The notes beneath the pieces are model-generated. The model was not told where the DNA came from. It saw nothing but the letters and a program-made list of their open reading frames with translations, and made no database searches. From contig CALMPQ010000379.1 of assembly GCA_937872005.1 (NCBI GenBank), positions 1-12,612 of the forward strand: DNA of 12,612 bases, in the 5' to 3' direction. Each line of letters begins with the position of its first letter. The stretch's first letter is position 1. The translations under genes and the position numbers were made by a program. The DNA comes from an uncultured Propioniciclava sp. GTDB lineage: Bacteria; Actinomycetota; Actinomycetes; Propionibacteriales; Propionibacteriaceae. Shown piece by piece: positions 1 through 12,612 of this stretch.

Positions 1-439
1 TGACCTGGTAGGTGTCCCCGGCGGCGATGTGCTCGCGGATGGCGGCCACATCGGCGGCGTGCCGTGCCGCATCGATCGTGGGCGTCCACGTGCCCGCGGC
101 CCCTGACCCTGTCAAACCGGTCCCTGAGCCTGTCGAAGGGTCTTCGACAAGCTCAGCCACCGGGTCGCGACGCTCGAACACGGCGAACCAGGCCAGGGGC
201 AGGTCGGCCAGCGGCGTCCCGTCGAGGGGTCGCACCACCAGCGCATCGTCGAAGGCGGGGGCGGCCTCGTAGGCGATCCACCCGGCCACCCAGCGACCCG
301 AGGCCACGGCGTCCGCCGCGCGGTCGAGTGCGGGCAGCACCTCGTCGAGGGAGCGGGCGGAGAACTCCTCCACCAGCCCCGAGAGCCGGAACGACCTGCG
401 CCGGTGGGGGCGCAGGTCGTCGAATCGGGCGGCGGTCAC
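1..439 (-). CDS. pabB: Aminodeoxychorismate synthase component I (PabB-like), 5' part only
   Basis: This is the N-terminal 146 codons of a chorismate-utilising enzyme that runs off the left edge. Members aminate chorismate to 4-amino-4-deoxychorismate for folate synthesis in the cytoplasm. Visible family signs are GWIAYEAAPAFD in the N-terminal domain and, at the truncated end, AAIREHIAAGDTYQV, the conserved entry to the chorismate-binding domain; the last base, A, fits the expected Asn codon. The start is taken as the GTG at 437-439, because an overlapping GTG one base upstream is followed at once by TGA. No clear Shine-Dalgarno sequence precedes it, and it lies 12 bases after the stop of the 1.3S gene, so translation may depend on read-through from that operon. 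Between the two domains the frame passes through a palindromic repeat and encodes a Gly/Ser/Thr-rich insert. An anthranilate synthase component I relative is the main alternative. The assignment rests on family recognition. Confidence 0.8.
   Translation of the reverse strand, partial: MTAARFDDLRPHRRRSFRLSGLVEEFSARSLDEVLPALDRAADAVASGRWVAGWIAYEAAPAFDDALVVRPLDGTPLADLPLAWFAVFERRDPVAELVEDPSTGSGTGLTGSGAAGTWTPTIDAARHAADVAAIREHIAAGDTYQV
101..121. repeat. Degenerate third arm of the REP-like element
   Basis: Bases 101-116 match the left arm plus its flank at 122-137 (CCCTGASCCTGTCRAA) with two or three mismatches and sit directly before it. This looks like a decayed tandem copy or the remains of a longer compound element. 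It is also read in frame in pabB, giving a second Thr-Gly-Ser stretch. Confidence 0.55.
124..156. repeat. REP-like palindromic element inside pabB
   Basis: Two 15-base arms (124-138 and 142-156) are reverse complements except at one position and flank a 3-base GGT loop; the arm reads CTGAGCCTGTCGAAG. The element would form a strong hairpin in either DNA strand or in the mRNA. Similar CTGAGCYTGTCGAAG palindromes are scattered through many high-GC actinobacterial genomes and are usually intergenic. Here it lies within the pabB reading frame without causing a stop. The pairing is seen directly; the wider distribution is recalled. Confidence 0.85.
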
Positions 440-451
440 ACCGCGATTGTG

Positions 452-817
452 TCAGCCCAGCTCGATGAGGGCCTCGCCACCGGCGACGGACTCGCCCTTG
501 GCGACGAGGATCCGGGCCACGACGCCGTCGGCCGGCGCGGTGATCTCGGTCTCCATCTTCATGGCCTCCAGGACGCAGAGGACCTGGCCGGCCGTGATCT
601 CGTCGCCCTCCTCGACCAGGATGCGCGACACCGAGCCGGACAGGGGCGCGGTGACGGCGTTGGCCGACGTGGCCTGCACCGAGGCGGTGGACGCGACGGG
701 GGTGTTCATGCCACCCGCGCCACCGATGACGATCGACCCGACGGCGGGCTTCTCCTCCTCGGCGACCTCGACCTCGATCTCGTAGGGAATGCTGTTGACG
801 GTCACCTTCAGCTTCAT
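452..817 (-). CDS. Transcarboxylase 1.3S subunit, biotin carboxyl carrier protein
   Basis: This 121-residue biotinylated carrier shuttles CO2 between the 12S and 5S subunits of methylmalonyl-CoA carboxyltransferase in the Wood-Werkman cycle. The N-terminus MKLKVTVN matches the known propionibacterial 1.3S chain of about 123 residues. A flexible Ala/Ser/Thr-rich linker spans roughly residues 34-54. The biotinyl domain fills residues 55-121, with the biotinylation motif EAMKMET and the acceptor lysine at position 87. The flanking TAPLSGSV and [10 protein letters not shown] strands are typical of the fold. The ATG is preceded by GAAAGG at suitable spacing. It is the fourth gene of the transcarboxylase operon, 16 bases after the small accessory gene. 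A carrier for another biotin carboxylase complex is conceivable, but the 12S and 5S neighbours argue strongly for transcarboxylase. Confidence 0.95.
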
Positions 818-833
818 GGTGTGCCTTTCGGGG

Positions 834-1100
834 TCAGCGCAGGTGCAGCGGCGCGTGGACGTGCTGGGAGCGACGGGTCGTGGACTGCCACGACGCCGAC
901 CGCGTGAAGTGCGCCTGGCGGCGCTTGGCGCGGTGACCGAGGTAGGCGGCGACGGCCGCGGCGATCGCGACCACCGTCTCCTCGGGCACGTTCTGCGCGT
1001 TGAGCAGCTTGATGCTCTTGATCTCGGTCTCGAGGCTCTCGACGCGGTCAGTCAGGCGACGGACGGCGTCCAGCAGCTCGGCATTGATGTCGTCGGACAT
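834..1100 (-). CDS. Small transcarboxylase-operon protein (88 aa, delta/epsilon-like)
   Basis: This 88-residue protein is coded between the 12S and 1.3S genes. Residues 5-35 form a charged heptad-like helix ([19 protein letters not shown]) that could be a coiled coil. An Ala-rich segment follows ([18 protein letters not shown], about 40-57), then a basic tail ending in His and Arg. The middle segment resembles the cytoplasmic end of small subunits found with methylmalonyl-CoA and oxaloacetate decarboxylases (MmdD/OadG types), but no hydrophobic membrane anchor precedes it. The ATG at 1100 has a strong GGGGGAG ribosome site, and the 12S stop is only 11 bases upstream. It is not one of the three classical transcarboxylase chains. 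A structural or assembly role beside 12S is inferred from position and residual similarity only. Confidence 0.8.
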
Positions 1101-1111
1101 GGCTCCCCCGA

Positions 1112-2677
1112 TCAGACCGGCCCGAGGCCGTGCTTCTTGGCGGGCCGCAGCACGCGCTTGTTGACCAGGATCTCCAGCTGCATCGCGATGTAGCGGCGCG
1201 TGTCGGCCGGGTCGATGACGTCGTCGACGAGCCCGCGGGAGGCGGCGACGAACGGCGTGGAGTAGGTGTCCTTGTACTCCTGCACCAGCTCGGCGCGACG
1301 CGCGTCGGGGTCGTCGGCCGCGGCGATCTCCTTGCGGAACACCACCGCGGCTGCGCCCTCGGCGCCCATGACCGCGATCTCGGCGGTCGGCCAGGCGAAC
1401 ACGGTGTCGGCGCCCATGTCCTTGGCGCACATGGCGAGGTACGCCCCGCCGTACGCCTTGCGCAGCACGACCGTGACCTTCGGCACCGTGGCCGCGGCGT
1501 AGGCGTACAGCATCTTGGCGCCGTGGCGGATGATGCCGCCGTGCTCCTGGGCGACACCGGGCAGGAAGCCCGGGACGTCCACCAACGTCACCAGCGGGAT
1601 GTTGAAGGCGTTGCAGAACCGGATGAACGCGGATGCCTTGTCGGAGGCGTTGATGTCGAGCACGCCCGCCATCACGTTGGGCTGGTTGGCCACGAAACCG
1701 ACCGTCTTGCCCACGATGCGGCCGAAGCCGATCACGATGTTCTTGGCGTAACCGGCCTGGACCTCGAGGAAGTCCTGGTTGTCGACCAGGCGCCCGATGA
1801 CCTCGCGCACGTCATAGCCCTTGTTCCCGTCGGTCGGCACGAGGGTGTAGAGCGACTCGTCGTGCTCGACGTAGGGGTCGGGCTCGACCATCGGCGGGTC
1901 CTCGGTGTTGTTCTGCGGCAGGAAGCTCAGCAGCTTCTGCGCCACGAGGATCGCCTGCTCGTCGTCGTCGACCACGAAGTGGTTGACGCCCGAGATGGCC
2001 TGGTGGGTGTCGGCGCCACCGAGGGCGTCCTGGGTGACGTCCTCACCCGTGACCTGCTTGATGACGCTCGGGCCCGTGATGAACATGTGGGCCTTGCGGG
2101 TCTGGATGATGAAGTCGGTCAGCGCCGGGCTGTAGGCCGCGCCACCGGCGCAGGGGCCCGAGATGATCGAGATCTGCGGCACCACACCCGACAGCTCGAC
2201 GTTGGTGTAGAACACCGCGCCGTAGCCGTGGAGGGAGTCGATGCCCTCCTGCACGCGCGCGCCACCGGAGTCGTTGATGAACACGAAGGGCGTGCCCAGG
2301 CGCAGCGCGGCCTCCATCATCTGGACGACCTTGAGGCTGTGGGTCTCACCGGCCGAGCCGCCGACGACCGTGAAGTCCTGGCTGGCGATGTGGACGGGGC
2401 GGCCGAACACCGCGCCGGTGCCGGTGACGACACCGTCGGCCGGCATGTCGGCGGAGTCCATGCCGAACGCGGTGGTGCGGTTGCGACGGAACAGGCCGAT
2501 CTCCTGGAATGTGCCGTCGTCCACCAAGGCGGTGACGCGCTCGCGGGCGGTCAGCTTGCCGGCGTCCCGCTGCTTCTGCAGGCGGGCCTCCCCGCCGCCG
2601 AGGCGGGTCTCGACGCGGGCCTCGTTGAGCTTCTCGACCTGCTTGGCCATCGAGGGTGGTGTCTTCTTGGTGCTCAT
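1112..2677 (-). CDS. mmdA: Methylmalonyl-CoA carboxyltransferase 12S subunit
   Basis: This 521-residue carboxyltransferase moves the carboxyl group of (S)-methylmalonyl-CoA to biotin on the 1.3S chain, releasing propionyl-CoA. It aligns along its full length with the known propionibacterial 12S chain of about 524 residues and shares its PAKKHG C-terminal end. It has two crotonase-like halves. The first contains SQDFTVVGGSAGE (99-111), GGARVQEGIDSL and GPCAGGAAYSPAL (174-186); the second contains DVPGFLPGVAQEHGGIIRHGAK and KAYGGAYLAM (407-416). The paired glycines at 178-179 and 410-411 lie where the family forms its oxyanion holes. The ATG at 2677 follows the 5S stop by five bases, and a GAAAGG in the 5S tail can serve as ribosome site, so the two genes are probably coupled. 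A propionyl-CoA carboxylase beta chain is the nearest alternative and is disfavoured by the neighbouring 5S gene. Confidence 0.95.
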   Translation of the reverse strand: MSTKKTPPSMAKQVEKLNEARVETRLGGGEARLQKQRDAGKLTARERVTALVDDGTFQEIGLFRRNRTTAFGMDSADMPADGVVTGTGAVFGRPVHIASQDFTVVGGSAGETHSLKVVQMMEAALRLGTPFVFINDSGGARVQEGIDSLHGYGAVFYTNVELSGVVPQISIISGPCAGGAAYSPALTDFIIQTRKAHMFITGPSVIKQVTGEDVTQDALGGADTHQAISGVNHFVVDDDEQAILVAQKLLSFLPQNNTEDPPMVEPDPYVEHDESLYTLVPTDGNKGYDVREVIGRLVDNQDFLEVQAGYAKNIVIGFGRIVGKTVGFVANQPNVMAGVLDINASDKASAFIRFCNAFNIPLVTLVDVPGFLPGVAQEHGGIIRHGAKMLYAYAAATVPKVTVVLRKAYGGAYLAMCAKDMGADTVFAWPTAEIAVMGAEGAAAVVFRKEIAAADDPDARRAELVQEYKDTYSTPFVAASRGLVDDVIDPADTRRYIAMQLEILVNKRVLRPAKKHGLGPV

Positions 2678-2682
2678 CGTGT

Positions 2683-4176
2683 TCAGGCCCTTTCGACCGT
2701 GACGGAGTGGGCGCGGCCACCGAGGGTGACCGTGTAGGAGATGGGGCCCTTGACGGCACCCGCTGCGTCCTTGGCGGACTCGGCGGCCTTGGCCATCTGC
2801 TCGGGCGTCTTGCCGACGCTCTTGGGGCCGTCGGCGCGGCTGGCGAAGAAGCCGGGCGCGACCGAGGGGAACATGGCGTAGGTCAGCACGTCCTCGGCGG
2901 TGCCGTCAGCACCCTCCAGCGCGGACGCCTCGGTCACCAACTTCTCCCACTCGGGCTCGAGGTGGTTGGCCGGACGGTCGGTGATCGGCTCCTTCTTCGT
3001 CTGGTTGTGCGCGATCTCGACGACCTCGGCGTCCCGTTCACCGATGCACTCGCCGTAGTAGCCGAGCATCAGGTCCGCGAACTCGCCGGTGAGCACCTTG
3101 TACTTGCCCATCAGCACGTTGAACACGGCCTGGGTGCCGACGATCTGCGACGACGGGGTGACCAACGGCGGGTGGCCGGCGGCGGCCTTGACCAGGGGAA
3201 CCTCCTCCATGACCTCCTTGATGCGGTCACCCGCGCCCTGGGCCTTGAGCTGGCTCTCCATGTTGGACAGCATGCCGCCGGGGATCTGGCTGGAGAAGAT
3301 GTCGGTGTCGACCAGCGTGGCCGACTCGAACTCGGCGTACTTCGGGCGCACCTTGGCGAAGTGGTCGCGCACCTTGAGCAGGCGGTCCATGTCGAGGTCG
3401 GTGGTGTACTCGGTGCCCTCGAGCATCGCGACCAGCGACTCGGTCGGGTTGTGGCCCGGGCCGAGGCTCATCGAGGAGATGGCGGTGTCGACCACGTCGG
3501 CGCCGGCCTCGATGGCCTTCATGAGGCTGACCAGCGTCACGCCGGTGGTCGAGTGGCAGTGCACGTTGATCTGCACGTCGCCGTACGTGTCCTTGATGCC
3601 CTTGACGATGTCGTAGGCCGGCTGCGGCTGCAGCAGCGCCGCCATGTCCTTCAACGCGATCGACTCAGCACCCATGTCGAGCAGTTGGCCGGCGAGCTTG
3701 ATGTAGCCCTCGGTCGTGTGCAGCGGCGAGATCGTATAGCAGATCGTGCCCTGCGCGTGCTTGCCGGTCTTCTTGACCGCGTTCATCGCCCGCTCCATGT
3801 TGCGGGGGTCGTTGAGGGCGTCGAACACGCGGAAGACGTCCATGCCGTTCTCGGCCGACTTCTCGACGAACTTGTCGACGACGTGGTCCTCGTAGTGGCG
3901 GTAGCCGAGCAGGTTCTGGCCGCGCAGCAGCATCTGCAGGCGGCTGTTGGGCATCAGCTTGCGGAAGGTGCGGAGGCGCTCCCAGGGGTCCTCGTTCAGG
4001 AAGCGGATGCAGGCGTCGTAGGTCGCGCCACCCCAGCACTCCACACTCCAGAAGCCGGCCTGGTCGATGTCCTCACACGCGTCGACCATGTCCTCCATGG
4101 CCATGCGGGTCGCCATCAAGGATTGGTGCGCGTCGCGCAGAGCTAGTTCAGTCACACCGATGGTTCGTGGGCTCAT
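2683..4176 (-). CDS. Methylmalonyl-CoA carboxyltransferase 5S subunit
   Basis: This 497-residue subunit carboxylates pyruvate to oxaloacetate using the carboxyl group carried by biotin, closing the Wood-Werkman cycle. It matches the known 5S chain (about 505 residues) throughout, including SVECWGGATYD, NEDPWERLR and the GYRHY region. The TIM-barrel metal site is intact: Asp15 in LRDAHQS, Lys176 in ALKDMAAL (the position carbamylated in the family) and His206/His208 in HCHSTTG. The C-terminal part (about 360-497) fits the helical and 1.3S-binding region. The frame extends upstream to an ATG at 4233, but MSPRT at 4176 is chosen because it matches the family N-terminus and has AGGA eight bases upstream. 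It is the first gene of the operon, so a promoter should lie in 4177-4351. A pyruvate carboxylase fragment is ruled out by length and context. Confidence 0.95.
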   Translation of the reverse strand: MSPRTIGVTELALRDAHQSLMATRMAMEDMVDACEDIDQAGFWSVECWGGATYDACIRFLNEDPWERLRTFRKLMPNSRLQMLLRGQNLLGYRHYEDHVVDKFVEKSAENGMDVFRVFDALNDPRNMERAMNAVKKTGKHAQGTICYTISPLHTTEGYIKLAGQLLDMGAESIALKDMAALLQPQPAYDIVKGIKDTYGDVQINVHCHSTTGVTLVSLMKAIEAGADVVDTAISSMSLGPGHNPTESLVAMLEGTEYTTDLDMDRLLKVRDHFAKVRPKYAEFESATLVDTDIFSSQIPGGMLSNMESQLKAQGAGDRIKEVMEEVPLVKAAAGHPPLVTPSSQIVGTQAVFNVLMGKYKVLTGEFADLMLGYYGECIGERDAEVVEIAHNQTKKEPITDRPANHLEPEWEKLVTEASALEGADGTAEDVLTYAMFPSVAPGFFASRADGPKSVGKTPEQMAKAAESAKDAAGAVKGPISYTVTLGGRAHSVTVERA

Positions 4177-4351
4177 GGTGACCATCCTGCCACCATTGCT
4201 ACTACATGTCGTCGGAGCGACCAATAATCCCAAGGTTTGATCCTTTGCCGTCCATCATGTGGACGCCGCGGGCTCGCAGCGCGGGACGCACGGTTGACCC
4301 GCTTCCAGCGGTAGAGTCGTGGCGTCCGCAGCCAACCGACGCAGGGGTCCC
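4177..4351. other. Divergent intergenic region between transcarboxylase and glycosyltransferase operons
   Basis: No gene is supported in these 175 bases. A locally AT-richer patch at about 4222-4247 stands out in the GC-rich surroundings and is a natural place for promoter elements serving the 5S operon on the minus strand. On the plus strand TAGAGT at 4312-4317 is a possible -10 box for the glycosyltransferase operon, but no good -35 box sits 16-18 bases before it. Both promoters are inferred from the divergent arrangement. Confidence 0.45.
4185..4191 (-). promoter_or_regulatory. Ribosome site fixing the 5S start
   Basis: On the minus strand GGCAGGA lies eight bases before the ATG at 4176. 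The alternative in-frame ATG at 4185 directly abuts this motif and so cannot use it, and no similar motif suits the 4233 ATG. This favours the start at MSPRT. Confidence 0.6.
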
Positions 4352-5071
4352 ATGCCAACCAAACGCACCCTCGTGGTGATGCCCGCGTGGAACGAATCCG
4401 AGGTGATCGGCTCCACCGTGGCCGAGGTCATCGCGACCTGCCCCGATGTCGACCTGCTCGTCATCGACGACGGGTCGACCGACGACACCGCCACCCGAGC
4501 CCGGGCGGCCGGGGCCCATGTGCTGCGCCTCCCCTACAACCTCGGAGTCGGCGGCGCGCTCCGCGCCGGTTACAAGTACGCCTGGCGCGAGGGCTACGAC
4601 CAGACCATCCAGGTGGACGCCGACGGCCAGCACAACCCCGCCGACATCCCCAAGGTCCTTGCCGGGCTGGAGCACGCCGACATCTCGATCGGCGCCCGCT
4701 TCGCCGGCAAGGGCGACTACGCCGCCCGCGGCCCGCGCCGCTGGGCGATGAGCCTGCTCGCGGTCGCCCTCTCGGCGGCCGCGAAGGTGAAGCTGACCGA
4801 CGTGACCTCCGGCTTCCGCGCCGCGAACCGCGCCGCGATCGAGCAGTACACCCGTCACTACCCCGCCGAGTACCTCGGCGACACCGTCGACTCCCTGATG
4901 ACCGCGGTCCGCTCGGGCTACACGGTCACCCAGATCCCGGTCGCCATGCGCCCCCGGCAGGGCGGTGTGCCCAGCGCCAACCCGTGGAAGGCGGCCGTGT
5001 ACCTGCTGCGCTCCCTGTTCGCCCTGCTCATCGCCTCGACGCGCAAGGCCCGCCCGAGGGAGGCCGCCTGA
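4352..5071 (+). CDS. Family 2 glycosyltransferase, DPM/polyprenyl-phosphate sugar synthase type
   Basis: This 239-residue cytoplasmic-face enzyme has a GT-A fold of the dolichyl-phosphate-mannose-synthase type, which moves a sugar from a nucleotide donor to a polyprenyl phosphate. Visible motifs are MPAWNE (10-15), IDDGSTDDT (38-46) for nucleotide binding, NLGVGGALRAGY (63-74), the metal-binding QVDADGQH (87-94) and SGFRA (153-157). The C-terminal basic end follows a hydrophobic stretch (about 214-229) that may be an amphipathic membrane contact; there are no added transmembrane helices. The start is the ATG at 4352, with AGGGG four bases upstream, rather than the ATG at 4319. The stop overlaps the next start (TGATG), so it is coupled to the DUF2304-type gene. 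Donor and acceptor sugars cannot be told from sequence. Confidence 0.88.
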   Translation: MPTKRTLVVMPAWNESEVIGSTVAEVIATCPDVDLLVIDDGSTDDTATRARAAGAHVLRLPYNLGVGGALRAGYKYAWREGYDQTIQVDADGQHNPADIPKVLAGLEHADISIGARFAGKGDYAARGPRRWAMSLLAVALSAAAKVKLTDVTSGFRAANRAAIEQYTRHYPAEYLGDTVDSLMTAVRSGYTVTQIPVAMRPRQGGVPSANPWKAAVYLLRSLFALLIASTRKARPREAA

Positions 5072-5436
5072 TGGCTTGGGTCGCCTTCCTCGTGGTCGCG
5101 CTCGCCTCGGTCGTCGTCGTCCTGGCCATCCTGCGCTCGGGGCGCATGCGCGAGAAGTACGCCGCCCTGTGGCTCATCGTCAGCCTGGCGATCGTCGTCG
5201 TCACCGTCTGGCCGGGCCTGCTCGCGTGGCTCGCCGGCGTCCTCGGCGTCGCGCTGCCCTCGAACCTGCTGTTCTTCCTCGCCATCCTCATGCTGCTCGG
5301 CGTGACGCTGCACCTGTCCCTCGAGGTCTCCAAGCTCGAGGACGAGTCGCGCACCCTGAGTGAGGAGGTGGCGCTCCTCGACGAGCGCCTGCGCCGCCTC
5401 GAACCGGGCGCTGCGGGGCCCGAGGACCCGCGATGA
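5071..5436 (+). CDS. DUF2304-type small membrane protein
   Basis: This 121-residue protein has three predicted membrane helices (about 2-21, 31-49 and 64-85), followed by a charged helical tail (86-112; LEDESRTLSEEVALLDERL) with a coiled-coil look. RMREKYAALWL between the first two helices is typical of DUF2304 proteins, which commonly sit beside DPM-like glycosyltransferases. Its ATG overlaps the stop of the upstream glycosyltransferase, and its own stop overlaps the next ATG, so all three genes should be made together. A role as a membrane partner or regulator of the glycosyltransferase is inferred from this linkage. No enzymatic residues are evident. Confidence 0.82.
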   Translation: MAWVAFLVVALASVVVVLAILRSGRMREKYAALWLIVSLAIVVVTVWPGLLAWLAGVLGVALPSNLLFFLAILMLLGVTLHLSLEVSKLEDESRTLSEEVALLDERLRRLEPGAAGPEDPR

Positions 5437-7385
5437 CCTGGGGCGAGTTCGCCCCCAGCGTGGCCTACGCGGCGCTCCTGCTCCTCCTGCCGGGGTGGCT
5501 CGTCGTGCGCGCCGGCGGCATGCGGGGCTTCTTCGGGTTGGCCGCGGCACCGGCCGTGTCGGTGTCGCTGGTGGCCGGTTCCGCCATCGCGGGCGGCATC
5601 CTCGGCGTCCCCTTCGGGTTGCTGCCCCCCGCCGTCGCGACCGCCGCCGGAATCGTTGTCGGCCTGGCTTTCTCCTGGCTGCGCGGGCGCGCCCGATCCG
5701 AGCTCCGATCCGAGTTCCCGACCCGTTCGTGGGGGTGGTGGGCCGGTCTGGCCATCGCGGCCGTCCTGTGGGCACGCCACCTGCGCAACGCGCTGGGCGC
5801 CCCCGACTCGTTCTCCCAGACCTTCGACAACGTGTGGCACCTGAACGCCGTGCGTTACATCGTCGATTCCGGCAACGGGTCGTCGTTGAGCGTGGCGAAC
5901 CTGAACTCCTCGGGTGGCGGCTTCTACCCGGCCGCGTTCCACGACCTGGCCGCACTCGTGACCCAGCTCAACGGCGGCCACCTGACCGCGGCGGTCAACG
6001 CCGTCGCCGCCGTGACCTGCGCCGTGGTGTGGCCGTTGGCCGCCATGTTCCTGGTCCGCGCGTCCTTCCGGCCGGCGTTCGCCAGCACCGTGGGCGTCGG
6101 GGTGCTGGCCGCCTCCTTCCCCGGCTTCCCGCTGCTGCTCCTCGACTTCGGCGTCCTGTACGCCAACCTGCTCGGGCTGGCCCTGCTGCCCATCGTGATC
6201 GGGGTCGTCGCCCAACTGGGCAACCTCGGCACGGATCGCTGGATCGACTGGCCCACCGGGACGATCCTGCTGGTCGCCACCGTGCCGGCCCTGCTGGTGG
6301 CGCACCCCAACGCGTTCATGCTCCTGCTGCTCGTGGCCTCGTGCCTGATGGTCGCGGTGATCGTGCGTCAGGGCGTCCGGCTGGGCACTCGCGCCGGCGA
6401 CGGGCCCGTCGTCTGGCTGCGGCTCGCGCTGGCGGCCGCCGTCATCGTCGGCACGGTCCTCGTCTGGCCGGTCCTGCGGCCCGGCACGGCGGTGCACGAC
6501 TGGCCCGCTCCGCTCTCCACGCCCGCGTCCCTGGGCCACGCCCTGCTGAACGCCCCGCTCCTCTACATGGCCAACTGGACCGTCAGCATCCTCATGGTCG
6601 TCGGCCTCGTCGTGGCCGCTCGCCGCCACCTGCTGTGGCTCGCCGGGGCCTGGGCCGTCGTCGTCTACTTCTGGCTCGTGGTGTCGAGCTTCGGCTCGAC
6701 CGAGTTCCGCCTGCTGCTGGTCGGCATCTGGTACAACGACTCGAGCCGGTTCGCGGCGAACCTGCCGATCCTGGCGCTGCCGCTGGCCGCGCTGGGGGTG
6801 GACTGGATCGTCACGCGCGTGGCGGCCCTCCTCGGTGCCCTGCCCGGGCTGGCGTCCCGGTTGAAGCCCGCCCGCCTGGCGGCCCTGCTGGCCGTGCTCA
6901 CGGTGGCCGTGGGGGTGGCAGGCACCCAGTTCACGACGTCGATGGACACGGCGGTCGCCAAGACCCGCGCCCTGTACCAGATCCGGCCCGACTCGCCGCT
7001 GGTGAACTCCGACGAGTACGCGGTCCTGATGCGGGTCCCCGATCTGGTGCCGCCCGACGCGGTGATCGCCAACAACCCCTGGAACGGGTCGGCCCTGGCC
7101 TACGCCCTGACCGGCCGACACGTCACCGCGCCGCACATCCTCTACGGCGACACCCCGCTGCGCGAGGTCGTCCGCGACCGCCTCGACGACGCCGAGACCG
7201 ACCCCGAGGTATGCCCACTGGTCCGTGAGGAGAACGTCCGCTACGTGCTCGACTTCGGGACGATGGGCGTCCACGGCGTGGCCTACGACTACGCCGGGCT
7301 CGACGATCTGGAACCCCGGCGCGGGTTCGTCGAACTCGCGCGCGTCGGCGACGCCGCCCTCTACGAGATGACCGCTTGCGGCTGA
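5433..7385 (+). CDS. Polytopic membrane protein, DUF6541-type, possible GT-C glycosyltransferase
   Basis: This 650-residue protein has about a dozen hydrophobic helices between residues 9 and 500 and a soluble C-terminal domain (about 501-650) that should face outside. After the fourth helix a long loop (about 118-180) contains DSFSQTFDNVWHLNAVRYI, with Asp132 and nearby acidic and aromatic residues. This is the position where GT-C enzymes place catalytic acids after an early helix. IWYNDSSRF (432-440) is a second distinctive motif. The architecture resembles DUF6541 proteins, often found next to DUF2304 and DPM-like genes. The inferred role is transfer of a polyprenyl-linked sugar to a cell-surface glycan. 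The start overlaps the DUF2304 stop by four bases. Its 3' end overlaps the tail of the remnant on the other strand by 25 bases. The exact function is not established by the sequence. Confidence 0.78.
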   Translation: MTWGEFAPSVAYAALLLLLPGWLVVRAGGMRGFFGLAAAPAVSVSLVAGSAIAGGILGVPFGLLPPAVATAAGIVVGLAFSWLRGRARSELRSEFPTRSWGWWAGLAIAAVLWARHLRNALGAPDSFSQTFDNVWHLNAVRYIVDSGNGSSLSVANLNSSGGGFYPAAFHDLAALVTQLNGGHLTAAVNAVAAVTCAVVWPLAAMFLVRASFRPAFASTVGVGVLAASFPGFPLLLLDFGVLYANLLGLALLPIVIGVVAQLGNLGTDRWIDWPTGTILLVATVPALLVAHPNAFMLLLLVASCLMVAVIVRQGVRLGTRAGDGPVVWLRLALAAAVIVGTVLVWPVLRPGTAVHDWPAPLSTPASLGHALLNAPLLYMANWTVSILMVVGLVVAARRHLLWLAGAWAVVVYFWLVVSSFGSTEFRLLLVGIWYNDSSRFAANLPILALPLAALGVDWIVTRVAALLGALPGLASRLKPARLAALLAVLTVAVGVAGTQFTTSMDTAVAKTRALYQIRPDSPLVNSDEYAVLMRVPDLVPPDAVIANNPWNGSALAYALTGRHVTAPHILYGDTPLREVVRDRLDDAETDPEVCPLVREENVRYVLDFGTMGVHGVAYDYAGLDDLEPRRGFVELARVGDAALYEMTACG

Positions 7386-7561
7386 GCGCCGATCTCGATC
7401 TCGCCGTGGCCCTTCGAGGACTCCAGCACGGCGCTCGCCACCTCGATGGTGTGGACGCCCTGGGCGAACGTCACCACGGTGCCGCCCGTGCCCAGCACGG
7501 CGTCGCGGAAGTTCTCGTGCTCGACCAGCAGCGGCTCCCGCTTCGGGAAGGCGTAGCGGCG
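7361..7561 (-). pseudogene. 3' remnant of Gfo/Idh/MocA sugar dehydrogenase (WlbA/WbpB-like)
   Basis: About 65 codons match the C-terminal end of NAD-dependent sugar dehydrogenases: RYAFPKREPLLVEHENFRDAVLG and VVTFAQGVHTIEVASAVLESS. The start codon, Rossmann fold and catalytic Lys-Pro region are absent. Just upstream, near 7558-7565, the sequence changes to the front part of an aminotransferase in another frame. Such dehydrogenases oxidise UDP-GlcNAc-uronic acid at C3 in UDP-diacetamido-uronic acid synthesis, which fits the neighbouring acetyltransferase and epimerase. The TAG stop lies inside the 3' end of the convergent membrane gene. As it stands it cannot encode a working dehydrogenase. 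An assembly deletion rather than a genomic one remains possible. Confidence 0.72.
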
Positions 7562-7975
7562 CCGGGTGCCCGTAGAGGTGCACCGGCATGATCGCCTTCG
7601 TCTTCTCGGTGATGGACGCCTCGACCGCGGCCGGGTCCAGGGTGTAGTCATCCAGCGCGATGTCGGCGAACACCGGGGTCGCCCCCGTCAACGCGACCGA
7701 GTTCGCCGTCGCCGCGAACGTGAACGACGGCACGATGACCTCGTCACCGGCACCGATCCTGCTCGACAGCAGGCCCAAGTGCAGGCCCGACGTTCCGGAG
7801 TTCACGGCCACGCACGCACGGCCCAGACCGAAGTGGGCCGAGAACTCCTCCTCGAAGGCCTTCACCTCGGGGCCCTGGGCGAGCATGCCCGAGCGCAGGA
7901 CGCGGTCCACCGCTTCCCGCTCCTCGTCGCCGATCAGGGGCTTCGCAGGGGGATGAAGTCACCCGGGTTGTTCAT
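7560..7975 (-). pseudogene. 5' remnant of DegT/DnrJ/EryC1/StrS sugar aminotransferase, frameshifted
   Basis: The gene starts at an ATG (7973-7975) overlapping the acetyltransferase stop and reads MNNPGDFIPLRSP, then hits TGA at 7934-7936. One frame over, homology continues without a gap as LIGDEEREAVDRVL, AVNSGTSGLHLGLL, GDEVIVPSFTFAATANS, TPVFADI and IMPVHLYGHPA, the standard N-terminal third of PLP-dependent sugar aminotransferases. The break is in a four-G run (7937-7940 on the plus strand) that looks one base short. Homology then ends at 7560, well before the PLP-binding lysine, and the tail of a dehydrogenase follows. Such enzymes (WlbC/WbpE) add the 3-amino group that the adjacent WlbB-like enzyme acetylates. 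Even if the frameshift is a sequencing error, the truncation removes the active site. Confidence 0.82.
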
Positions 7976-8577
7976 CAGTTGCCTTCCAGTTCGATCAGTC
8001 GATCCGGCCCGTCCTCCACAAACCGGTCACCCGAGTCCGGGCACACCCAGTGCCCCGGTCCCTCGGCAGCTTGCAACGGGACGCCACGGCGTCCGACCCA
8101 GCCGACCCGGCGGGCGGGGACGCCGACCACAAGCGCGAAGTCGGGGACGTCCTTGATCACGACGGCCCCGGCGGCCACCATCGCCCACCGGCCGATCGTC
8201 ACCGGAGCCACGCACACCGCCCGCGCGCCGATCGCGGAACCCTCCAGGCAGGTGACGCCCACCGGCTCCCAGTCGTCGGCGCGCTTCAGGCGGCCGTCGG
8301 GCTCGATGGCCCGCGGGTAGTGGTCGTTGGTGAAGACCGCCGCCGGGCCGACGAAGACACCGTTCTCGAGACGGGCCGGCTCGTAGACCAGCGCATAGTT
8401 CTGCAGCTTGCAGTTGTCGCCCATGACGACGCCGGTGCCGACGTAAGCGCCGCGGCCGACGACGCAGTTCTTGCCGAGCACCGCGTCCTCACGCACCTGG
8501 GCGAGGTGCCAGACGGACGACCCCTCACCGATCTGGGCGGACTCCGCAACGTCTGCGCTGGGATTGATCTTTGCCAC
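7975..8577 (-). CDS. WbpD/WlbB-like UDP-amino-sugar N-acetyltransferase
   Basis: This 200-residue hexapeptide acetyltransferase has repeats forming a left-handed beta helix across residues 5-155 (for example AESAQIGEGSSVWHLAQV, DAVLGKNCVVGRGAYVGTGV, GPAAVFTNDHYPRA, AIGARAVCVAPVTIG). VWHLAQVRE, CKLQNYALVYE and FTNxxxPRA are the pattern of enzymes that acetylate the 3-amino group of UDP-2-acetamido-3-amino-2,3-dideoxy-glucuronate. The C-terminal extension (160-200) with WVCPDSGDRF is common in actinobacterial versions. The start is the GTG at 8577 behind a very strong AGGAGGAG with five-base spacing. Its stop overlaps the start of the aminotransferase remnant (TGATG). The upstream partners that would make its substrate are broken here, so it may be orphaned or served from elsewhere in the genome. 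Confidence 0.85.
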   Translation of the reverse strand: MAKINPSADVAESAQIGEGSSVWHLAQVREDAVLGKNCVVGRGAYVGTGVVMGDNCKLQNYALVYEPARLENGVFVGPAAVFTNDHYPRAIEPDGRLKRADDWEPVGVTCLEGSAIGARAVCVAPVTIGRWAMVAAGAVVIKDVPDFALVVGVPARRVGWVGRRGVPLQAAEGPGHWVCPDSGDRFVEDGPDRLIELEGN

Positions 8578-8635
8578 TTCCGCTCCTCCTCACGGGGACG
8601 CCTGCACGGGGATGTTCCGGGATCCTCGGTCCGCG
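8578..8635. other. Gap between epimerase and acetyltransferase genes
   Basis: These 58 bases hold the acetyltransferase ribosome site and, just upstream of it on the minus strand, two direct copies of TCCCCGTG separated by seven bases. No hairpin terminator or promoter is evident, so co-transcription of the two flanking genes is likely. Confidence 0.5.
8583..8590 (-). promoter_or_regulatory. Strong ribosome site for the GTG start of the acetyltransferase
   Basis: AGGAGGAG on the minus strand lies five bases before the GTG at 8575-8577. It supports this non-ATG start, which also matches the family N-terminus. Confidence 0.8.
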
Positions 8636-9742
8636 TCAGTTGCTGCGGACTGCCCGCTCAAGGTGGTCCACGATGATCTTCGACGGGTGGTAATCGTCCA
8701 GCGTCGAGGGCCGGCGGTACTCGCGCCAACGGTCGAGGAACCCGGCGACCTCGTCGAGGTCGAAGCGGGTGAGCATCACATTCTCGCCCAAGCCTTGGTG
8801 GCGTTCCGTTCGTTCCCGGTGCACCGCGCAGGGGGTACCGAGCACAGCGCACTCCTCCTGGAGGCCACCCGAGTCGGTGACCACGAAGGCCGCACGGGCC
8901 AACACCGGAAGGAAACGCGCGTACGAGCGCTTGGGGACCATCCTGAACCGGTCCCCGAACAGCCCGTCGAGCCCGAGTTCGGCGATCCGGGCGCGTTCGG
9001 CCTCGCCGACCACCATCACGAGCGGGGTTTCAGTGGCCCGTCGTGCCAGCAAACGCAACAGGGCCGAGAAGTGCTCGCCCTGGCGCAGCAACTCAAAGCG
9101 ATGCAGGGTGACGAGCCCGAACTCCGCGGGCAGGTCCAAGTCATCGGGCTCCTCACGCGCGGCCAACCGGAGGGCGTCAACAACGGTGTTGGCCCCGGTG
9201 AGGACGACCTCGCCCGGCGCGTGCTCTCGGCGGAGGTTCTCCACTTCTCGCTGAGTCGGGGCGAAATGCATCGTGGCGAGGCGGCCGACGACCCTGCGAT
9301 TGGCCTCCTCGGGGAAGGGGCTGAGCATTGAGCCGCTGCGCAGCCCGGCCTCGACGTGGGCGACCGTGGCACGCAGCAACCTGCCGATGAGGCTGCCGAG
9401 CACCGTGGTGAAGGTGTCCCCGTGCACGACGACCACCGGTTTCGTCCCCTTCGCCCGCAAGTCGTTCAGCAGCGCGCTACGTTGGCGCAGGACGCCGCCT
9501 GCGACGGAGGCCAACCATCCCGGCACTTGCCGAGAGGCTGCGATGTGCTTGCGTCTCCGCTCAGGCACCAAGTGGCGGTCGGGTTGGGCGAGCTGAAGAT
9601 TGACCAGCGTTTCCTGGACGCCTGACACGTGTTGGTCGGTGCTCCACAGGTACGTCGGAACCCCCCGCTCCCGCAGTTCGCGCATGACGGGGGCGATCTT
9701 GATGATCTCGGCTGTTGTTCCGGCTACGAAGACGATCGACAC
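8636..9742 (-). CDS. UDP-N-acetylglucosamine 2-epimerase-family protein (WecB/WbpI-like)
   Basis: This 368-residue cytoplasmic enzyme of the non-hydrolysing UDP-HexNAc 2-epimerase family has a GT-B fold. Key family residues are present: Asp109 in VHGDTFTT, Glu131 in AHVEAGLRSG, Glu145 in PFPEEANR, His214 in TLHR, plus TDSGGLQEE (289-297) and the RTERHQGL loop that binds UDP. The N-terminal loop is AGTTAEIIK rather than the usual GTRPExIK, so it belongs to a divergent branch. It may act on UDP-GlcNAc (giving UDP-ManNAc) or, given the adjacent WlbB-like gene, on UDP-2,3-diacetamido-glucuronate as WbpI does; sequence alone does not decide. The start is GTG at 9742, 11 bases after the upstream glycosyltransferase stop, with a modest GGTGGGGA before it. 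It is probably co-transcribed with both neighbours. Confidence 0.85.
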   Translation of the reverse strand: MSIVFVAGTTAEIIKIAPVMRELRERGVPTYLWSTDQHVSGVQETLVNLQLAQPDRHLVPERRRKHIAASRQVPGWLASVAGGVLRQRSALLNDLRAKGTKPVVVVHGDTFTTVLGSLIGRLLRATVAHVEAGLRSGSMLSPFPEEANRRVVGRLATMHFAPTQREVENLRREHAPGEVVLTGANTVVDALRLAAREEPDDLDLPAEFGLVTLHRFELLRQGEHFSALLRLLARRATETPLVMVVGEAERARIAELGLDGLFGDRFRMVPKRSYARFLPVLARAAFVVTDSGGLQEECAVLGTPCAVHRERTERHQGLGENVMLTRFDLDEVAGFLDRWREYRRPSTLDDYHPSKIIVDHLERAVRSN

Positions 9743-9753
9743 AGTTCCCCACC

Positions 9754-10785
9754 CTACGGCTTACCGGCGCGCCGGCGCAGGGTGGAGCGGGCCGACAGGA
9801 ACAGGCCGCGCCAGAGCCCGGCCCCGAACAGGACCCCGAAGGCCGGAGCCAGAGCGCTGAACCCACGGATGTCACGCGGCTTCACGCCCAAGGCCGCGAG
9901 GCCGCCGGCTGCGCCGACGCTGACCGCGGGGATCGCCAGCAGGGTGCGGGGCTTGCGCAGGACCAGCAAGAGTGCGAGCGGGCACGCGACGAAGAAGGCC
10001 ACCAGCGGCCAGAACAGCCGGGTGCCCGGGTGGAGGTACGAGTCGAGGAACAGGGTCCCGCGGTCGAAGGTGTGGCGGACGAACCCCACCATGTCGGCCC
10101 GCGCCAGGTAGTCAGCCGCGTACCGGGGAGTCATCCAGATCCGTTCGCGCCCGGCGATGTACCGGATGAGCGCCGTGTCGTCGCTGGCGTAACGAGGGTC
10201 GTCGTACAGGCTGGTGAGGGCCTCGTACCCCTCGAGCAGGAGGTCCCGGGGGCACACGAAACCGCCGGTGCCCTTCGGGTAGTAGTCGAAGTCGTCCAGC
10301 CCGAAGGAGACCAGGCGCGGCTCCCGAAGGTAGCGGCGCCACCCGATGAAGGTCATCACGTGCCAGAACTGGGCCTGGGGGTTCCGCTCGCGGGGCACCT
10401 CGATGTGGCAGTTCCACACCCGGCGCTCGGGGTGCTGCGTCAGTTCGGCGGCCAGGTTGACCAACGCGTCTGGGTGCATCCGCATCCGCACCCCGATGAA
10501 GGACACCAGTTCGCTCTCGGCCTGTTCGACACCCGCACGGGAGGCCGCCAGCCGACCCGCATTCGCTTGGCTCACCACGCGGATGCCCACCGGGGTCTCG
10601 GACGCCAGCGCCTCAACTTCCACGACCGTGTCGTCGGTCGACCCGTCGTCGACGACGAGCACCGACGCGCCGCTCCACTGCGCGCGTTCGATCGCGGTGC
10701 AGACGGAGGCGACGGCCGGCCGGATCATGCCGGATCCGTTGTGGACGATCACGACGAAGGTGAGGGACGGGAGTGGCCCAGACAT
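9754..10785 (-). CDS. Family 2 glycosyltransferase with C-terminal membrane segment
   Basis: This 343-residue protein has an N-terminal GT-A domain (FVVIVHNGS, VVDDGSTDDT at 45-53, QANAGRLAASRAG at 73-84) and a later motif set FDYYPKGTGGFVCPR (166-180) and YASDDTALI (199-207). Two hydrophobic stretches at about 258-276 and 282-300, and a third near 309-330, suggest a membrane-bound tail. Where most relatives carry a D-x-D metal site it reads FIGVRMRMHPDAL, so the usual acidic pair is missing. It is clearly paralogous to the divergent gene at 10864. The start at 10785 is chosen because the nucleotide-binding domain begins there and AGGA lies six bases upstream; the open frame runs further back without homology. 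It heads the minus-strand sugar operon, and a surface-glycan role is inferred. Confidence 0.85.
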   Translation of the reverse strand: MSGPLPSLTFVVIVHNGSGMIRPAVASVCTAIERAQWSGASVLVVDDGSTDDTVVEVEALASETPVGIRVVSQANAGRLAASRAGVEQAESELVSFIGVRMRMHPDALVNLAAELTQHPERRVWNCHIEVPRERNPQAQFWHVMTFIGWRRYLREPRLVSFGLDDFDYYPKGTGGFVCPRDLLLEGYEALTSLYDDPRYASDDTALIRYIAGRERIWMTPRYAADYLARADMVGFVRHTFDRGTLFLDSYLHPGTRLFWPLVAFFVACPLALLLVLRKPRTLLAIPAVSVGAAGGLAALGVKPRDIRGFSALAPAFGVLFGAGLWRGLFLSARSTLRRRAGKP

Positions 10786-10863
10786 TGGTGTTCCTGCTCC
10801 TGGATCGGGTCGGAAGGAGGGCGGGGCTAGGATACCAACGACGTTCACAGAGAGGGACGAGCC
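10786..10863. promoter_or_regulatory. Divergent intergenic region between two paralogous glycosyltransferases
   Basis: These 78 bases must hold start signals for both directions. The minus-strand gene has AGGA at 10792-10795; the plus-strand gene has AGAGGGA at 10851-10857. TAGGAT at 10828-10833 could be a plus-strand -10 box, but no convincing -35 box accompanies it. Promoter placement is inferred. Confidence 0.4.
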
Positions 10864-11853
10864 GTGACGCGAGACACGCTGGGGGTGGTGATCCCCTGCT
10901 ACAACGAGGGCGAGTGGATCCGCCGCTCCGTGGACGCGCTGCACCTGGCCGCCGAGCGCGCCGATTGGCCCCTGGACGTGCTGGTCGTCGACGACGGCAG
11001 CGGCCCCGAGACGGCCGCGATCATCGACGACCTCGCCGCGGCCGGCCGGGTGCGCGTCCTGCGGCAGGCCAACGCGGGGCGACTCGCGGCGCGCCTCAAC
11101 GGCCTGCTCGACGGCGACACCGAGCACGTGTTCCTCCTGGACTCCCGGGTCATCGTGTCCGCCGACTCCCTTGTGCCGCTGCGCCGGCACCTCACCGAGG
11201 AGCCCGCCTCCGCCTGGAACGCCCACGTCGAGGTGATGTCGGAGGGCAACCCGTACGCCGCCTTCATGTACGGCATCACCAAGGTGGGCTGGCGCGCCTA
11301 CTTCAAGCAGCCACGCATCGTCCGGTTCGGGCCTGAGGAGTTCGACTCTTACCCCAAGGGGACCGGCGCCTTCGCCGCGCCCCGCGCGACCCTGATCGAG
11401 GCCAGCCGCGAGTTCGACTCCCTGTTCGCGGACCAACGATTCGCCTCCGACGACACGAAGATGCTGCGCAACGTGGCCGCGATCACCCCGATCGGCATCG
11501 ACCCCGCCTTCACCGTGGACTACTACGGCCGCGACTCGGCCGAGCGCTGGCTCAAGCAGGTCTACTTCCGCGGCACGACCTTCGTCGACGGCTACGTGGG
11601 CACGAAGGGACGCGCCGTCGCGCTCCTCGGCGCGCTCGGGGTCGCGCTCCCAGTCGCGGGGCTGGTCACCGTGAAGCGTCCCGCGATCGCCGTCGCGGGT
11701 GTCGCCGTGGCCACTGTCGCCGCAGCGGCCGCAACGAGGGCATCCGGTGGCACCGCGCGGGAGTCGGCCTCGGTCGCCGCCCTGCTCGTCCCGTTCACCG
11801 CCGTGTTCGGGTCCGGGTTCGTGCGCGGCCTGCTCATGGCCGCCCGCCGATGA
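10864..11853 (+). CDS. Family 2 glycosyltransferase with C-terminal membrane segment (paralogue)
   Basis: This 329-residue enzyme has GVVIPCYNEG (7-16), VVDDGSGPET (41-50), QANAGRLAARLNG (68-80), YPKGTGAFAAPR (163-174) and FASDDTKML (193-201). The same motifs occur in the same order in the minus-strand neighbour at 9754-10785. At the usual D-x-D place it reads LLDSRVIVSADSL, keeping only one acidic residue. C-terminal hydrophobic stretches (about 252-270, 273-290 and 303-325) suggest membrane attachment. The GTG start at 10864 has AGAGGGA six bases upstream. Its stop overlaps the flippase ATG by four bases, so the two are coupled and this enzyme probably adds a sugar to the lipid-linked unit the flippase exports. 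Donor and acceptor are unknown. Confidence 0.87.
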   Translation: MTRDTLGVVIPCYNEGEWIRRSVDALHLAAERADWPLDVLVVDDGSGPETAAIIDDLAAAGRVRVLRQANAGRLAARLNGLLDGDTEHVFLLDSRVIVSADSLVPLRRHLTEEPASAWNAHVEVMSEGNPYAAFMYGITKVGWRAYFKQPRIVRFGPEEFDSYPKGTGAFAAPRATLIEASREFDSLFADQRFASDDTKMLRNVAAITPIGIDPAFTVDYYGRDSAERWLKQVYFRGTTFVDGYVGTKGRAVALLGALGVALPVAGLVTVKRPAIAVAGVAVATVAAAAATRASGGTARESASVAALLVPFTAVFGSGFVRGLLMAARR

Positions 11854-12488
11854 CCCCTGCCGCCGAGGCCGCCGAGGCCGCCGAGCCGGGCTCGCAGGGG
11901 CTGCGCGGCCGGTCGGGCCTGCTGATCGCGGGGGCGTTCTTCAGCGCCAGCCTGCTGGGCTTCGTGCTGCTCGGCGTGGTCTCCCGCTGGCTCTCCCAGG
12001 AGCAGAACGCACAGTTCCTGGCCCTGTGGGGCCTCGTCTTCGGCATCGGCAGCGCGCTGTCGGCGGTGGAGCAGGAGATCGTCCGCCTCGCCACGAACGC
12101 CCACATCGACGGCACCCGCGTCCCGGGCCGGGCCCTGCAGGTGACCGGGCTCGCCATCGCGGTCGCCGTGCTCGCCGTCGGTGTCATCGCCTTCCTGCCC
12201 GGGGTCGGGGAACTGCTGCGCCAATCGCTGCTCGTCGCCGCCCTCGTCTTCGTGGCGACCGGCGGCTTCGCGGTCCAGTGCCTGAGCCGTGCCGTCCTGC
12301 TCGGCACCAATCAGGTGGTCGCCTATGTGAGCGTGGTGCCCAAGGGATCCAAGATTCGCGGTTATGAAATCTACGCCGACGCGGTCCTTACCGCTCAACT
12401 CACACAGGCAACGATCGTCAGCCTCAAGGCGGGCAGTGACGAATGTCGTTCGCGACGGGCAAGGTCGAGCCAGTACTCAAGGCTTTAA
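11850..12488 (+). CDS. Wzx-like polysaccharide flippase, broken after about 163 residues
   Basis: The frame starts at an ATG overlapping the upstream glycosyltransferase stop. Residues 1-22 are an acidic, Ala-rich cytoplasmic leader. Hydrophobic helices follow at about 25-45, 58-72, 95-115 and 122-148, with SGLLIAGAFFSASLLGFVLLGVVSRWLS and SRAVLLGTNQVVAYV typical of MATE/Wzx-type exporters of lipid-linked glycans. The family normally has 400 or more residues and 10-14 helices. Here homology stops near residue 163 (12338), and the remaining 49 residues (PKGSKIRGYEIYAD and on) are soluble, come from lower-GC DNA and end at TAA 12486-12488. The flippase is therefore a 5' fragment joined in frame to unrelated sequence, through either a contig join or an insertion. 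The N-terminal identification is good; the C-terminal end of the frame should not be read as flippase. Confidence 0.75.
   Translation: MTPAAEAAEAAEPGSQGLRGRSGLLIAGAFFSASLLGFVLLGVVSRWLSQEQNAQFLALWGLVFGIGSALSAVEQEIVRLATNAHIDGTRVPGRALQVTGLAIAVAVLAVGVIAFLPGVGELLRQSLLVAALVFVATGGFAVQCLSRAVLLGTNQVVAYVSVVPKGSKIRGYEIYADAVLTAQLTQATIVSLKAGSDECRSRRARSSQYSRL
11859..11885 (+). repeat. Three exact tandem copies of GCCGCCGAG in the flippase leader
   Basis: A 9-base unit is repeated three times without mismatch and encodes three Ala-Ala-Glu triplets in the N-terminal leader. Copy-number changes by slippage would keep the reading frame and alter only leader length. Confidence 0.8.
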
Positions 12489-12612
12489 GGACGTGCAACG
12501 ACAACCTACTGCGGTCGTGGGGCGTCGATCCCGCCGCCCGGGCGATGACGCCGCGCGGCGTGTCACCGGCCGACTGGTTTCCACCGAGCAGCTATCCCGA
12601 CAATGCCAAACG
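12443..12612 (+). CDS. Fragment of an alphaproteobacterial-type TonB-family protein, runs off right edge
   Basis: From the ATG at 12443 an open frame continues to the edge: MSFATGKVEPVLKALRTC, NDNLLRSWGVDPAARA, then PADWFPPSSYPDNAKR. The order LxxCxxxLLRSWGVDP followed by a Trp and a SSYP/SDYP motif is what I recall from the region preceding the C-terminal domain of energy-transducer TonB-like proteins in sphingomonads. The preceding stretch 12339-12442 (GYEIYADAVLTAQLTQATIVSL) probably belongs to the same gene one frame over, because inserting a single A near 12442 would join them into one uninterrupted protein. Codon use and GC here are unlike the rest of the window. This is not expected in an actinobacterium. 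The family call is from memory and moderately sure; the frame itself is clear. Confidence 0.5.
   Translation, partial: MSFATGKVEPVLKALRTCNDNLLRSWGVDPAARAMTPRGVSPADWFPPSSYPDNAK

Follow-up and report, generated by a model that had tools for sequence, protein, structure and literature searches.

The window, by which we mean the whole stretch of DNA that was analysed, is one entire contig of 12,612 bases. Its minus strand carries an intact gene of the UDP-N-acetylglucosamine 2-epimerase family (8636..9742; Pfam Epimerase_2, E 2.7e-54) and an intact gene for a WbpD-like acetyltransferase with hexapeptide repeats (7975..8577; Pfam Hexapep; 200 aa open; GC3 0.88). The acetyltransferase gene lies upstream of an aminotransferase gene, the start of which overlaps the acetyltransferase stop (7934..7975, minus strand). 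Only the N-terminal ~130 residues of this WbpE-like aminotransferase of the DegT/DnrJ/EryC1 family are present (7560..7949, minus strand; Pfam PF01041, E 9.2e-48), and they are followed by the C-terminal end of a WbpB-like dehydrogenase of the Gfo/Idh type (7361..7558, minus strand). An intact gene for a DUF6541 membrane protein converges on this remnant from the plus strand (5433..7385; full-length match to Pfam PF20176, E 1.4e-163). The last 25 bases of this gene overlap the dehydrogenase tail, which has its stop at 7361.

Bases 1-4233 of the window are 89.7% identical to a one-contig genome of the same genus (G001). In a further genome of the genus, G006, carboxylase genes, a GT2 gene, the DUF6541 gene, a flippase gene, a second GT2 gene and the epimerase gene were found within 10 kb. 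Compared with the window, the flippase, second GT2 and epimerase genes of G006 stand in inverted order (L182 8352-18146 vs window 1115-12338), which indicates that the locus has been rearranged between species of the genus. Neither the aminotransferase nor the dehydrogenase was matched at the G006 locus.

Structure of the joint

On the minus strand the aminotransferase sequence ends at about 7560 with the residues HLYGHPA, and the dehydrogenase end, beginning RYAFPKREPLLVEHENFRDAVLG at 7558, follows immediately in a different frame. The joint can be placed to 7557-7563. The first-pass annotation had described an out-of-frame fusion of an aminotransferase to a dehydrogenase near 7560, and this description was borne out.

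The Pfam DegT_DnrJ_EryC1 match of the aminotransferase block spans 128 aa and profile positions 3-126 of 360; the DegT domain is thus present in the fragment, and is incomplete. The dehydrogenase remnant corresponds to the last ~57 of 329 residues (329 aa being the length in the relative L026) and is without the N-terminal cofactor-binding domain. When the tail alone was searched, no Pfam family, NCBIfam family or solved structure was matched. By tblastn it matches the final part of the dehydrogenase that lies 3' of the DegT gene in relatives, with 44-58% identity. Measured against L026, with proteins of 364 and 329 aa, the window lacks about 62% of the aminotransferase and roughly 83% of the dehydrogenase. 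The DegT frame remains open across the joint and then runs antisense through the DUF6541 gene. The joining of aminotransferase to dehydrogenase is not due to chance.

The intact locus in relatives

Ten stretches of DNA were fetched, of which two were the assembly's own contigs and eight came from other genomes, chosen from the best acetyltransferase matches. The acetyltransferase gene is followed by the aminotransferase gene in all eight relatives, and in seven of them the dehydrogenase gene comes next in that order. The two points that touch each other here are 1497, 1496, 1500, 1499, 1499, 1520, and 1498 bases apart in these seven relatives; in the window the spacing is 0. In the eighth relative (L024, from genome G008) the dehydrogenase tail was unmatched at E 1e-3. 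The earlier annotation had suggested a search of close relatives for an intact acetyltransferase-aminotransferase-dehydrogenase order, and this is the order found in seven of the eight, with 1496-1520 bases between the homologous points. It had also proposed that a single deletion was responsible, and the geometry agrees with this: the joint is accounted for by one loss of ~1.5 kb that took away the end of the aminotransferase gene together with most of the gene behind it. Since the missing stretch is contiguous and the gene order in relatives is intact, the arrangement fits a pseudogene produced by internal deletion. Like other pseudogenes of this kind, it consists of two truncated neighbours joined out of frame, with intact flanks; if the deletion is real, no difference from them was seen.

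Named genomes were also scanned for the locus, and the best 80 of 500 confirmed loci were kept, among them L059, which is the same DNA as L027, one of the eight relatives. In these best 80 of 500 loci the aminotransferase was full length in every case and an intact dehydrogenase stood next in 72; one of the remaining eight was truncated where its record ends, and the other seven had no dehydrogenase match. The fusion occurred in none of the 80. Within the same set, the aminotransferase block of the window is 92-93% identical to those of T. rhinocerotis, T. lapidicaptus, and Tessaracoccus sp. OS52. From this one gene we take the bacterium to be probably a relative of Tessaracoccus. It may be noted that the loci with an intact aminotransferase but no dehydrogenase match in the fetched stretch were L045, L046, L083, L091, L098, L099, and L107. 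At these, and at L024 with its unmatched tail, the route may differ.

A second lesion at the aminotransferase start

The aminotransferase gene carries a further lesion, which the first-pass annotation missed. Its frame breaks about nine codons past the start, in a run of C at 7948-7952, and ends after 13 codons. In 79 of the 80 loci (again the best 80 of 500) the corresponding aminotransferase block is preceded by an in-frame start, the exception being L060. Two more within-gene frame breaks in the assembly, read by eye, are also situated in runs of C: one at ~5018 of contig C197 (L133), inside what we take to be one FAD-linked oxidase gene, and the other at ~393 of contig C209 (L134), presumably inside a response-regulator-like gene. 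Runs of C or G of at least four make up 4.6% of the readable bases. Real slips favour runs of C too. Because of this location, the lesion at 7948-7952 may be either a read error or a real slip, and it was not counted as proof of decay.

Divergence of the dehydrogenase tail

The first 50 residues of the tail are 50-58% identical to the corresponding residues at four loci where the aminotransferase block is 90-93% identical. In 70 comparable pairs of relatives the lowest dehydrogenase-tail identity was 58% and the median 84%, so that the tail here falls below or at the minimum. The acetyltransferase, compared with the same four loci, showed identities of 81, 81, 81, and 66%, within the range observed for relatives (66 pairs; minimum 66%, median 85%). 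When 145 other genomes were searched, 47 gave a match, and the tail is 44-55% identical to their dehydrogenases.

Of the 14 columns with at least 97% conservation the tail violates none, and of the 20 at 90% it violates one. A strong relaxation of selection on the tail was therefore dropped as an explanation; near-invariant residues are kept, so the divergence is not simple decay. The aminotransferase block violates two of 67 columns conserved at 97%, a number equalled or exceeded in eight of 72 relatives. The codon bias of the tail is intact (GC3 0.97), with no decay of its own, and the loss should thus be either recent or not real.

Quality of the assembly

The source assembly measures 2.49 Mb in 482 contigs, with a completeness of 72.27% and a contamination of 1.1%. 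The missing parts were not found elsewhere in it, apart from paralogues with at most 55% identity. As the assembly is fragmentary and 72.27% complete, the absence of the missing piece carries little weight. Plasmid searches gave no match.

When 60 bases on either side of the two deletion ends were compared in the seven relatives, the longest shared words were of 6-8 bases. The 20-mer that spans the joint occurs once in the assembly, and this holds when two mismatches are allowed. Repeat-driven collapse of the assembly was rejected, there being no repeat of k-mer length at the joint as judged from these seven relatives. A chimera of two genomes at the joint was ranked below a local deletion, since genes that flank the joint on either side lie together in a single locus in G006. 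This shared locus, together with the lack of a long repeat at the joint, makes a single local deletion the best fit.

Frame breaks were also counted by a detector, a codon-usage model trained on G001 itself, which recovered 46 of 60 simulated one-base losses, all of them well inside long G001 genes, and which misses early-stop breaks such as that at 7948-7952. The sample comprised 57 contigs including the window; ten gave N, and the other 47, amounting to 301,778 bases, could be read. Four flags, the joint included, were raised in 280,249 coding bases of the assembly vs six in 355,789 of G001. With flags not in excess in this sample, a generally error-ridden assembly was rejected.

The right end of the contig

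The right end of the contig (12338..12612, plus strand) carries a separate, second joint, where tblastn and GC3 mark a foreign-looking end fused to a truncated flippase-like gene. Similarity of the flippase to those of G006 and G004 ends at residue 163 by tblastn, and at residues 170 and 167 by profile search; by profile search the gene was matched in four of 95 other genomes. GC3 is 0.95 before the contig end, drops to 0.43 over 12332-12442, and is 0.79 in the frame that reads best over 12443-12612. A value as low as that of the contig end was seen in five of 991 interior stretches and in one of 93 other contig ends. For the 56-residue frame at 12443-12612, the one match among 395 other genomes sampled from the phylum was weak (39% identity, containing a stop). 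This frame may resemble sphingomonad proteins. Judged from its sequence, the right end looks like a piece of another organism joined on, and it was missed in the earlier annotation. The break in similarity and the shift in codon use at ~12338 mean that the contig holds at least one suspect joint.

Assignment to a pathway

The first-pass annotation had placed the two broken genes in the synthesis of a UDP-diacetamido-uronic acid. In PMC10622841, WbpA-WbpB-WbpE-WbpD-WbpI is the pathway to UDP-ManNAc3NAcA. The gene set of the window is similar in that acetyltransferase, DegT aminotransferase, and dehydrogenase stand in a row with an epimerase adjoining, and differs in that two of the genes are broken and that the aminotransferase and the epimerase are nearest to other solved relatives. 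The set fits the WbpB-WbpE-WbpD steps given in PMC10622841, and the proposed pathway name is plausible, not firm. It is supported by the order of the steps, by the acetyltransferase match, and by the best family-model match of a relative's dehydrogenase; against it stand the low score of that last match, the failure to find a solved relative for this dehydrogenase, and the nearest matches of the aminotransferase and the epimerase.

The closest solved structure to the hexapeptide-repeat acetyltransferase is PDB 3mqg (E 6.4e-42), which belongs to the sugar acetyltransferase group. For the other two enzymes the intact proteins of the relative L026 were used. The best NCBIfam match of the L026 dehydrogenase is UDP-GlcNAc 3-dehydrogenase, at 183.5 bits, below the cut-off of 450, and no solved relative was found at E 1e-20. 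The best solved match of the L026 aminotransferase, 7b0d, is named glutamine-scyllo-inositol transaminase, and its best NCBIfam match reached 255 bits, the cut-off being 631. The epimerase of the window is closest to UDP-GlcNAc 2-epimerases (E 1.4e-38), with diacetamido-uronate 2-epimerases weaker (E 2.5e-25); against the NCBIfam model wecB it scored 185.6 bits, below the cut-off of 210.15. A WbpI role is possible for this protein.

A WbpA-like 6-dehydrogenase gene was present in the fetched flanks (up to 4 kb) of 29 of the 80 loci, the best 80 of 500. None was found in the window, and the nearest in the assembly are 28-34% identical and lie on other contigs.

A natural inactivation of the pathway at the dehydrogenase step is described in PMC4031482 for Porphyromonas gingivalis HG66, which carries a natural nonsense mutation in wbpB. 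The window resembles this case in the step affected; the lesion in P. gingivalis, a distant bacterium, is a point mutation, whereas here a deletion extends across two genes.

Origin of the joint

The first-pass annotation allowed either pathway decay or a collapsed assembly. We favour the view, with a probability of roughly 0.6, that one deletion of ~1.5 kb in the genome cut the aminotransferase and dehydrogenase genes. Such a deletion would have removed the last ~62% of the WbpE-like aminotransferase and the first ~83% of the WbpB-like dehydrogenase, probably by slippage or by end joining with little or no sequence in common. Both enzymes would be lost, because roughly one third of the domain remains in the aminotransferase and the N-terminal part is absent from what is left of the dehydrogenase. 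The amino-sugar precursor of this locus, most likely a 2,3-diamino-sugar uronate, could then no longer be made, and the adjoining acetyltransferase and epimerase genes, themselves intact, would be stranded without an amino-sugar route. The joint was observed in one genome only, and we infer from it a loss in the living organism.

A less probable explanation, which nevertheless has to be taken seriously, is that an artefact of assembly or amplification (mixed strains, chimerism of a read or clone, or faulty joining at this site) left out the ~1.5 kb, and that the living genome is intact. The fragmentary state of the assembly and the foreign-looking end of the same contig speak for it, as does the oddly large divergence of the dehydrogenase tail from its expected partner; the start-proximal break and those in C197 and C209, all in runs of C, are also suggestive of read error. 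Against this stand the ends of the deletion, which share no stretch near k-mer length in relatives, and the uniqueness of the 20-mer at the joint. Moreover, the genes from either side occur together in one locus, and frame-break flags are no commoner than in G001. The divergence of the tail also bears on a recombination scar, by which the tail would derive from the locus of another lineage through partial replacement of a polysaccharide cluster, the aminotransferase and the tail never having been partners. The tail is an outlier when set against the aminotransferase identity, the acetyltransferase being within range, and the inverted epimerase-GT-flippase block of G006 indicates rearrangement between species. 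However, the tail is about equally far from all 47 matching genomes of the 145 searched, so that no donor was found, and a plain deletion already matches the gene order and spacing; we regard such a scar as improbable.

A slightly better, still low, likelihood was given to a combined history, an ongoing swap of a surface sugar in which the dehydrogenase from a diverged lineage replaced the native one, a later deletion killed the diamino-uronate branch, and the other glycosyl genes were rearranged between species of the genus. That the fused or shortened gene is functional, its pieces being expressed as something new, is hardly credible. The DegT frame is indeed open across the joint and the codon bias is intact in both pieces, but the joint is out of frame and the DegT frame continues antisense through the DUF6541 gene. 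Long open frames are common at this G+C. In addition, the frame break near the start severs the gene from its own start, and the fusion is absent from the best 80 of 500 loci.

Whether a broken gene pair or a fault of assembly, the joint belongs to a known kind of event and is not a new kind of gene. Neither an aminotransferase nor a dehydrogenase should be entered in the annotation for the fused frames, and they should be left out of pathway calls for this genome. Provided that the deletion is real, one lineage has recently lost an amino-sugar branch.

Other composite frames

One frame-break flag in G001 (C1, ~2966207-2967005; L150) looks by eye like parts of two unrelated genes in a row, which we take to be the start of a substrate-binding lipoprotein gene running into the middle of an acyl-CoA ligase gene. 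Such scars may therefore occur in a one-contig genome too. In contig C197 (L133), at 7042-7264, a gene is cut and is followed at the contig end by another frame, a possible insertion of a mobile element; the cut gene is presumably like comM/Mg-chelatase, and the frame after it like the start of a serine recombinase.
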